DNA of 64,000 nt from Yoonia sp. (GTDB lineage Bacteria; Pseudomonadota; Alphaproteobacteria; Rhodobacterales; Rhodobacteraceae), in assembly GCF_014859355.1 (NCBI RefSeq), contig NZ_JACUUJ010000012.1, positions 1 to 64,000 on the forward strand. The letters run 5' to 3'. Of the stretch, positions 60,862-63,945 are shown piece after piece. Position numbers and translations under genes: made by a program. How positions within the stretch are numbered: the stretch's first letter is position 1; each line of letters starts with the position of its first letter. The notes beneath the pieces were generated by a model. The model had not been told where the DNA came from. It was given only the letters and a program-made list of their open reading frames with translations, and searched no databases.

Positions 60862-60904
60862 AATAAACCCGCCATGCCGTGCCATGGCGGGTTTATTTTT
60901 TTCA
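60862..60904 (+). terminator. Rho-independent terminator of thrS
   Basis: AATAAACCCGCCATG-CCGTGC-CATGGCGGGTTTATT followed by T-run. Confidence 0.93.
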
Positions 60905-61074
60905 AGGAATACGCTGCCGCGACAGGCTGCCGCAGGCATTTTGACTGTCACAGAACCTCACGGGCGCGCGATACACGTGGCTGTGAATGGCCGATGAACA
61001 CATAAAGCGGTTAGAGTTTCCGCATCGCCGGCTAACGGTGAACGTGAAACAATCTGAACCAAAGGATTTTCCCA

Positions 61075-61377
61075 ATGTCCAAAGCTACCAAGACACTTGT
61101 TCTCGCCAGTGCTGTGGCCACTGCACTCGCCGGCCTGTCCACCACTGCATCTGCCGCAGGCGAAGTGAAATGCTTCGGCATTTCATTGGCTGGTCAAAAC
61201 GACTGCGCTGCCGGCCCTGGCACAACTTGTGCTGGCACCTCAAGTGTGGATTATCAGGGCAACGCCTGGACGCTGGTCCCCGCAGGCACATGCGAAACCA
61301 TGGAACTGCCCACTATGGCCGATGGCACCCCGCGCACCGGTGCGCTGGAAGCACTTGATCGCGATTTGCCCGCATAA
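61075..61377 (+). CDS. bufA: DUF2282 / BufA1-family bufferin precursor peptide (secreted, 4 core Cys)
   Basis: Signal peptide [27 protein letters not shown]; core [47 protein letters not shown]; next to DUF692, DUF2063 and DoxX genes. Confidence 0.9.
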
Positions 61378-61392
61378 AATATCGACAACAAG

Positions 61393-61422
61393 CGCGCAGG
61401 GCAGTCACGCCGGCCCTGCGCG
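61393..61422 (+). other. Hairpin between bufferin precursor and maturase genes
   Basis: CGCGCAGGGC-AGTCACGCCG-GCCCTGCGCG perfect 10-bp stem. Confidence 0.75.
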
Positions 61423-61443
61423 TATCTTGCCAAGGACGGACAC

Positions 61444-62292
61444 ATGTTTGACGCCACCGCCCCCAGCCCGCTGCCTGCCCGCCCAGGCGTGGGATACAAG
61501 CCCCAGCATTACAGCGCCATCATGGCAAACCCGGGCCCTGTTCGGTGGCTGGAAATTCACGCCGAAAATTACATGGGCGACGGCGGGCGCCCCATTGCAC
61601 AATTGCGCCAACTGGCGGAACTTTTTCCCATATCGGTGCATGGCGTGGGCCTGTCGATCGGGGGTGAGGGCGATTTGGACGCCGACCACCTTGCCCGACT
61701 GAAGCATTTGGTTGGCTGGCTGAACCCCGCCAGTTTTTCCGAACATCTGGCATGGTCTACCCACGACACCCATTTTTTCAACGACCTGCTACCGCTACCT
61801 TATAACAGCGCCACACTGTCCCGCGTCGCGACACATATTGATCAACTGCAAGAGGCATTGGGGCGGCAAATACTGTTAGAAAACCCATCCAGCTATCTGG
61901 CCTTTGCCGGCGCGACCATGTCAGAAACAGATTTCCTGCGCGACCTGACCACACGCACCGGCTGCGGCCTGCTTCTTGATGTCAACAACGTCTTTGTAAG
62001 CGCCACCAATTTGCAGACGTCACCCCAGGACTATATCGCAGATTTTCCTTTGCACGCTGTGGGCGAAATTCACCTTGGCGGACATGATGTCGATGCCGAC
62101 GAAACCGGCGCACCCTTGTTGATCGACAGTCATGGCAAGCCTGTGGTGGATCCGGTCTGGTCCTTGCTCGACTTGACCTTGGCCAAAACCGGGCCAAAAC
62201 CCGTGCTGATCGAATGGGACAACGACGTGCCCGAGTGGCCTGTTCTGGCATCCGAGGCCGCACGTGCCGATGCTGTTTTGGCCAGCCAATGA
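61444..62292 (+). CDS. bufB: DUF692 family MNIO bufferin maturase
   Basis: GVGYKPQHYSAI, LEIHAENYMGDGG, SVHGVGLSIGG, SEHLAW, LLENPSSYL, LLLDVNNVFVSATN, EIHLGGH, DSHGKPV, IEWDNDVPEW. Confidence 0.94.
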   Translation: MFDATAPSPLPARPGVGYKPQHYSAIMANPGPVRWLEIHAENYMGDGGRPIAQLRQLAELFPISVHGVGLSIGGEGDLDADHLARLKHLVGWLNPASFSEHLAWSTHDTHFFNDLLPLPYNSATLSRVATHIDQLQEALGRQILLENPSSYLAFAGATMSETDFLRDLTTRTGCGLLLDVNNVFVSATNLQTSPQDYIADFPLHAVGEIHLGGHDVDADETGAPLLIDSHGKPVVDPVWSLLDLTLAKTGPKPVLIEWDNDVPEWPVLASEAARADAVLASQ

Positions 62293-63026
62293 CCGCAACG
62301 CAAGCCAGCTTTATCGCCAGCGTGCTGGACCCGCAGGCCGCCGTGCCGCAGGGGCTGCAAAACCCAGATGGCGCACCCGCGACCAAGCGGTTTGATGTCT
62401 ATCGCAACAATGTGTCTGTCAGCTTGGCTGACGCGCTTGAAACCGCCTTTCCGGTTGTGCGCAAGCTTGTGGGCGATGCTTTTTTCCGCGCTATGGCCGG
62501 GGTTTACTTGCGCCAGCATCCACCCAAAACCCCCCTGATGATGTTTTACGGCGATGCGATGCCCGCTTTTCTGGGCCGGTTTACACCCGCAAGATCATTG
62601 CCTTACCTTTCCGATATTGCCGCCGTCGAACTGGCAATGCGCCACGCCTACCACGCCGCTGACGTCCCCCCCATGGATGCTGAAACGCTGGCAACGCTGG
62701 CGCCCGACGCGCTGTTGCAAACACGGTTGCGGTTTGCCCCGGCAACACAGGTCATCCCATCGGATTACCCGATTTACAGCATCTACCGCGCCAATACGGT
62801 CGCCGATGCCCCCAAACCCGTCATGCAGCCGGAAACAGTTTTGATCACGCGTCCCGATCTGGACCCGATGATTGACCCGATCAACACCGCCACCGCCCGG
62901 TGCATCACCGCACTGTTGAAGGGCCAAACATTGGGTCAGGCGATGACCGGCGTCGGGGATGATCTGGATATGGGTGGTACGCTTGGATTGCTGCTGCGCC
63001 AATCAGCTGTGACCGCGATTTATTGA
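62289..63026 (+). CDS. bufC: HvfC/BufC-type DUF2063 protein
   Basis: FIASVLDPQAAVPQGLQNPDGAPATKRFDVYRNNVSVSLADALETAFPVVRKLVGDAFFRAMAGVYLRQHPP; ATGA overlap with bufB. Confidence 0.93.
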   Translation: MTATQASFIASVLDPQAAVPQGLQNPDGAPATKRFDVYRNNVSVSLADALETAFPVVRKLVGDAFFRAMAGVYLRQHPPKTPLMMFYGDAMPAFLGRFTPARSLPYLSDIAAVELAMRHAYHAADVPPMDAETLATLAPDALLQTRLRFAPATQVIPSDYPIYSIYRANTVADAPKPVMQPETVLITRPDLDPMIDPINTATARCITALLKGQTLGQAMTGVGDDLDMGGTLGLLLRQSAVTAIY

Positions 63027-63038
63027 AAGGCCAAACCG

Positions 63039-63593
63039 ATGTCGATCTTATCCCATCCCTTTACGCCGGTGGCGCGACAGCTTGATGCCGTGGGTCATCA
63101 CGCCCTGCCGCTTTTGGCGCGCTTGGTCTTTGCCGGGGTTCTTTTGGTCTATTACTGGAATTCAGGGCTGACCAAACTCGGAGATGGGCTGTTTGGTTTT
63201 CTGTTTCCCCGCTCGGGTGCCTATGCGCAGATTTTCCCCCAAGCGATGGAGGCCGCCGGCTATGACACCAGCCAGTTGGGCGTTTTTCACTGGGCGGTTG
63301 TGGTTGGCGGGACGGTTGCTGAATTTATTCTTCCGCTTCTGATCGTGCTTGGGCTTCTTACGCGGTTGGCGGCGGTCGGGATGATCGGGTTCATCATCGT
63401 GCAATCACTGACCGATCTTTACGGCCATGGCGGCATCGCCCACCCCGGCACGTTGGGTGCGTGGTTCGACGGTGCGCCAGATGCGCTGATACTGGATCAG
63501 CGCGCGTTCTGGGTGCTTTGTCTTTTGATCCTGGTGTTCAAAGGTGCTGGTGCGCTATCACTTGACCGTGCAATTTTCAAAAATGCGCCTTAG
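63039..63593 (+). CDS. DoxX-family membrane protein (HvfX-like)
   Basis: LLARLVFAGVLLVYYWNSGLTKLGDGLFGFLFPRSGAYAQIFPQAMEAAGYD; four TM helices; 12 nt downstream of bufC. Confidence 0.9.
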   Translation: MSILSHPFTPVARQLDAVGHHALPLLARLVFAGVLLVYYWNSGLTKLGDGLFGFLFPRSGAYAQIFPQAMEAAGYDTSQLGVFHWAVVVGGTVAEFILPLLIVLGLLTRLAAVGMIGFIIVQSLTDLYGHGGIAHPGTLGAWFDGAPDALILDQRAFWVLCLLILVFKGAGALSLDRAIFKNAP

Positions 63594-63945
63594 GTTCATC
63601 AGGTTTGCCAGCCGCAATCGCAAGCAAACCACCCAAGGCTGCAAACCCGATGGGGAACATCGTCGCAACATTGAACCCGAAAGCGGTATAGAAACAGGCT
63701 GCGGCGATCAGCATCAGGATCCCCCCCCACAGCGCGCGCGCCTTGGCCATGGCGCCACCGGCAATCGCCAGCAGTGGGGCAATGAAACTGGCAAAGCGGA
63801 TGAAGCCGGGGTTTTCAAAAACGCCAAAAATCTCGCCCACCTCGGTGCGCCGTTCGGTCAATTCGGCATAGCCGTAGCCAAACATGCCAACAAAAATGCC
63901 GATCAAACCAGCGATCAGGCCAAGTGTCAGGGCTGCGTTGCGCAT
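63577..63945 (-). CDS. Small four-TM membrane protein, uncharacterised
   Basis: MRNAALTLGLIAGLIGIFVGMFGYGYAELTERRTEV...; convergent overlap with DoxX gene. Confidence 0.7.
   Translation of the reverse strand: MRNAALTLGLIAGLIGIFVGMFGYGYAELTERRTEVGEIFGVFENPGFIRFASFIAPLLAIAGGAMAKARALWGGILMLIAAACFYTAFGFNVATMFPIGFAALGGLLAIAAGKPDEPKAHF

Follow-up and report, generated by a model that had tools for sequence, protein, structure and literature searches.

A short operon downstream of thrS in Yoonia sp. most likely encodes a periplasmic copper-binding peptide with its maturation proteins; the operon and its promoter are described here. The window, i.e. the whole stretch of DNA that was analysed, comprised 64,000 nucleotides.

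Layout of the operon

Four co-directional ORFs, bufA1-bufB-bufC-doxX, were located at 61075-63593, 3' of the thrS terminator (Table 1). An ORF check reproduced the coordinates of the preliminary description exactly, including the ATGA overlap and the 12 nt gap. The terminator that it had placed ahead of the operon was likewise recovered as a strong intrinsic one, with its stem followed by T's. On the opposite strand, a convergent gene at window positions 63577-63939 (-) encodes a membrane protein of approximately 120 aa (MRNAALTLGL...), and shares its last 17 nt with the 3' end of doxX. This protein had no match in Pfam or NCBIfam. In relatives, a minus-strand counterpart was present at the same place in about 26 of 80 loci.

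Table 1. Features of the buf locus, in window coordinates
Feature	Position	Strand	Remarks
thrS intrinsic terminator	60862-60897	+	15-bp stem, 6-nt loop, T tail; splits thrS from the buf operon
Conserved tandem promoter element TCACGGGCGCGCGATACACGTGGCTGTGAAT	60958-60988	+	Proposed regulator site; kept 5' of bufA in relatives
-10-like box TAGAGT (TAnnnT)	61012-61017	+	Start is the 24th base after the 31-bp element
bufA1, DUF2282 bufferin precursor	61075-61377	+	100 aa; Cys33/44/52/73; signal peptide ~1-27 by eye
bufB, MNIO bufferin maturase	61444-62292	+	282 aa; Pfam and NCBIfam
bufC, DUF2063 partner protein (PME type 1)	62289-63026	+	245 aa; ATG overlaps bufB TGA (ATGA)
doxX, membrane protein of the DoxX family; final operon gene	63039-63593	+	184 aa; 12 nt gap after bufC

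Assignment to the bufferins

The three domains proposed in the preliminary description, DUF2282, DUF692 and DUF2063, were all matched by HMM searches above the curated Pfam cut-offs. The precursor BufA1 was assigned to DUF2282 (PF10048) with an E-value of 2.9e-24 and 85.2 bits (cut-off 22.4). Its N-terminus resembled a Sec signal by eye, with putative cleavage near ASA-AG. The sequence contained four cysteines, and exactly four were counted in 68 of 78 homologous loci. The remaining 10 loci showed a fifth cysteine within the signal peptide or were wrong-frame reads of truncated loci. In bufferin 1, modification falls on the two central cysteines, whereas a disulphide joins the outer two (PMC12452194); hence, by transfer from relatives, Cys44 and Cys52 are the expected modification sites. 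Thiooxazole products are reported to absorb at approximately 305 nm (captophorin paper, PMC13097082).

BufB was affiliated with the family MbnB_TglH_ChrH (formerly DUF692; PF05114) at 1.8e-101 in Pfam. It scored 369 bits against the NCBIfam equivalog NF050167 MNIO_BufB, above the cut-off of 310. The usual MNIO motif blocks were present, with His66, His101, Glu146, Asp179/Asn181/Asn182, His210, Asp228, His230 and Glu257. The solved structure nearest by sequence was 3BWW, a DUF692 protein. BufC matched DUF2063 (PF09836) over the Pfam cut-off with 4e-26. An RRE half is predicted for BufC from its length of 245 aa, close to the ~250-260 aa expected for DUF2063 plus RRE, and from a weak match to HvfC that spans residues 5-213. 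The fourth protein belonged to DoxX (PF07681), with 2.7e-7 and 31.6 bits (Pfam cut-off 23.6).

HvfB, HvfC and HvfX all gave weak matches, as would be expected if the operon were of the HvfABCX/oxazolin (EGKCG) type. However, the NCBIfam scores lay below the curated cut-offs throughout (HvfB 221/360, HvfC 46/142 and HvfX 25/80 bits), whereas the BufB equivalog was reached, and the precursor is a DUF2282 protein devoid of EGKCG repeats. The sequence thus refuted an Hvf-type operon, which is extremely improbable, and the HvfX label previously attached to the DoxX protein was dropped. Other NCBIfam equivalogs were also missed by BufB, namely ApyH (100/400), MbnB (49/325) and ChrH (41/600 bits). 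The core bufferin gene set consists of precursor, MNIO, DUF2063 partner and DoxX (PMC12452194). Since BufB passed its equivalog cut-off and the precursor, partner and DoxX protein matched this set, the locus is a type-1 bufferin operon of an already described family and is ordinary in itself. The earlier reading as a bufferin-type operon was upheld on the same grounds. Its remark that no product from this locus had been characterised agreed with our findings; the family itself has been characterised in Caulobacter.

Copy number and distribution

The genome of 2.98 Mb (99 contigs, 99.74% complete) held one match each for MNIO, DUF2282 and DUF2063, all within the buf locus. The best 80 relatives of BufA1 were nearly all Rhodobacteraceae, comprising Loktanella, Yoonia, Ruegeria, Marivita and others, with precursor identities of 61-85%. 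The gene order thrS-bufA-bufB-bufC-doxX was kept in most of them. A DUF2282 match was found in 141 of 199 genomes of the family, which, together with the common order, makes the buf operon a normal component of the family's gene content. Tandem pairs of DUF2282 genes, as reported for some bufferin clusters, were observed on two contigs of relatives (G007:C18 and G101:C45).

A conserved tandem element upstream of bufA

In the alignment of the thrS-bufA intergenic regions, one block remained constant amid diverging surroundings. It was described by the 31-bp degenerate pattern TSACR-N4-YGYGA-N2-CAC-N5-YGTGANT, to which the copy in the window matched with zero mismatches. Across 64 upstream regions, the block was built from two TSAC/CAC-N6-GTGA dyads 15 bp apart, and the mean best match was 16.4 of 19 fixed positions compared with 10.5 in shuffled upstream regions. 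In 43 of the 52 sequences, a TAnnnT box began within the range of 16-33 bases past the element (shuffles over this whole range: mean 10.4 sequences, maximum 16). Its start fell exactly on the 23rd base in 18 and on the 24th base in 22 instances, 40 together. A consensus sigma-70 scan gave no match above chance.

The element was nearly exclusive to bufA. The pattern search of the own genome returned the bufA copy as the only match with fewer than two mismatches. The 199 family genomes contained 78 matches with at most one mismatch; 72 of these adjoined a DUF2282 gene, in 68 genomes, four of the 72 being opposite-strand readings of the same site. As the pattern was built from bufA upstream regions, its presence there was expected, and the informative results are its rarity elsewhere and the fixed spacing. 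Perfect copies all adjoined bufA in the 199 genomes, and the reversed element, used as a control pattern, matched once across all of them. In 67 genomes the element was located upstream of DUF2282, mostly 150-200 bp from the domain start; contrary to these, one copy (G063:C9:6219-6249) was situated 3' of the DUF2282 domain.

Six one-mismatch matches lay away from bufA. They were judged chance-like and rejected as further targets, since they were mostly inside unrelated genes and none recurred. One copy of this kind (L138:1476-1506, i.e. G198:C4:2775-2805) had no clear gene and was located approximately 640 bp past the end of a TetR-like gene; it is probably due to chance. No regulator was constant among the adjacent conserved genes when the ORFs of 80 loci were clustered. 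An ArsR-like neighbour was rejected as candidate regulator, being present in just 12 of the 80 loci. The 31-bp element was not found described in the literature on bufferins and their clusters other than the original bufferin paper. With regard to regulation, PMC12452194 names sigma factors and NrsF only.

Relation to sigma-F and NrsF

Buf-type operons of Caulobacter are controlled by the ECF sigma factor sigma-F and the anti-sigma factor NrsF at GTAACC-N16-CGAA promoters (PMC3511200). NrsF was absent from the own genome, and the 3 kb surrounding the element contained no GTAAY-N15-18-CGAA promoter; sigma-F control of this operon was rejected on these grounds. NrsF was detected in 21 of the 73 DUF2282 genomes that lack the element, compared with 1 of the 68 that carry it (Fisher p = 3e-6, a value that is too small because the genomes are related). 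A sigma-F-like promoter occurred at none of 53 loci with the element and at 10 of 25 loci without it, several of the ten having an NrsF-like sequence nearby; several of the other 15 were short contigs whose extracted stretch was not the true upstream region. The strict element and NrsF were both missing in 52 DUF2282 genomes; therefore, weaker forms of the element or further modes of control exist.

The element occupies the place where relatives have a sigma-F promoter and is the unexpected part of an otherwise standard operon. Because the element and the sigma-F system almost never co-occurred, and the own genome lacks NrsF, control of the bufferin appears to have passed to a putative, possibly single-target regulator in this group. 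The wider proposal is that the bufferin operon of Roseobacter-like Rhodobacteraceae dropped out of the sigma-F/NrsF regulon and came under a dedicated putative regulator, which would bind the tandem TSAC-N6-GTGA element at essentially one promoter per genome. We consider this proposal about evenly balanced between right and wrong.

Discussion

The best explanation of the locus, and a highly probable one, is a type-1 bufferin operon that yields a modified copper-chelating periplasmic peptide from an element-driven promoter; its chemistry and copper role are taken from the family literature. Transcription would begin after the thrS terminator, at a start predicted to lie about 7-10 nt beyond TAGAGT, with the tandem element replacing or abutting the -35 region of the promoter. 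A putative activator would bind the tandem element in place of the sigma-F/NrsF system of Caulobacter; both this activator and its metal response are postulated. BufA1 would be synthesised as a precursor carrying a Sec signal peptide, and its binding would be mediated by the partner BufC. BufB, as an iron-dependent MNIO, would oxidise Cys44 and Cys52 to thiooxazoles, and Cys33 and Cys73 would pair as a disulphide. The exported BufA1 would chelate surplus copper in the periplasm, with DoxX as a presumed membrane accessory.

The main target of the operon might instead be a different stress (Cr, Cd, Zn, gold or oxidative), with copper binding being incidental. The paralogous operons of Caulobacter depend on sigma-F and respond to dichromate and cadmium by induction (PMC3511200), and further bufferin fusions point to different metals (PMC12452194). 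Bufferins were nevertheless reported to chelate copper and to raise growth under copper stress (PMC12452194), and a main role against another stress is unlikely. Another view concerns the 31-bp element, which might be slowly diverging ancestral DNA and not a regulator site. All species compared are kin, so that its conservation partly reflects common ancestry, and the bufA upstream regions that supplied the pattern also came from this one family. However, the dyads keep their positions while flanks and spacer bases diverge, the spacing to the -10-like box is constant, and the element nearly excludes sigma-F promoters and NrsF. Ancestral DNA alone is likewise unlikely. For the bufferin operon with its proposed regulator site, the significance is twofold. 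Bufferins, a bacterial response to copper stress that was described recently, are widespread, and the present locus contributes a copy from marine-type Rhodobacteraceae that is syntenic and apparently inherited vertically. The 31-bp site is a testable lead to a putative, perhaps metal-responsive regulator.

Comparison with known systems

The closest counterparts are the operons CC3254-CC3257 and CC2907-CC2905 of Caulobacter vibrioides, which likewise encode DUF2282, DUF692/MNIO and DUF2063 proteins in the same order, with DoxX in the CC3254 operon. Caulobacter vibrioides holds two paralogous bufferin 1 sets, whereas the present genome holds one. It also relies on sigma-F/NrsF and GTAACC-N16-CGAA promoters, in contrast to the different promoter element and missing NrsF seen here. 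The HvfABCX/oxazolin and fontiphorin systems (EGKCG captophorins) share the MNIO with DUF2063 partner, a DoxX-family protein and a secreted cysteine precursor, but their precursor carries EGKCG repeats instead of DUF2282, and the Hvf equivalog cut-offs were not reached here. Methanobactin MbnABC uses the same enzyme superfamily (PF05114) and is also a copper-binding RiPP. It differs in its partner MbnC, in lacking a Sec signal and in scavenging rather than detoxifying copper, and the BufB described here lies below the MbnB equivalog (49/325).
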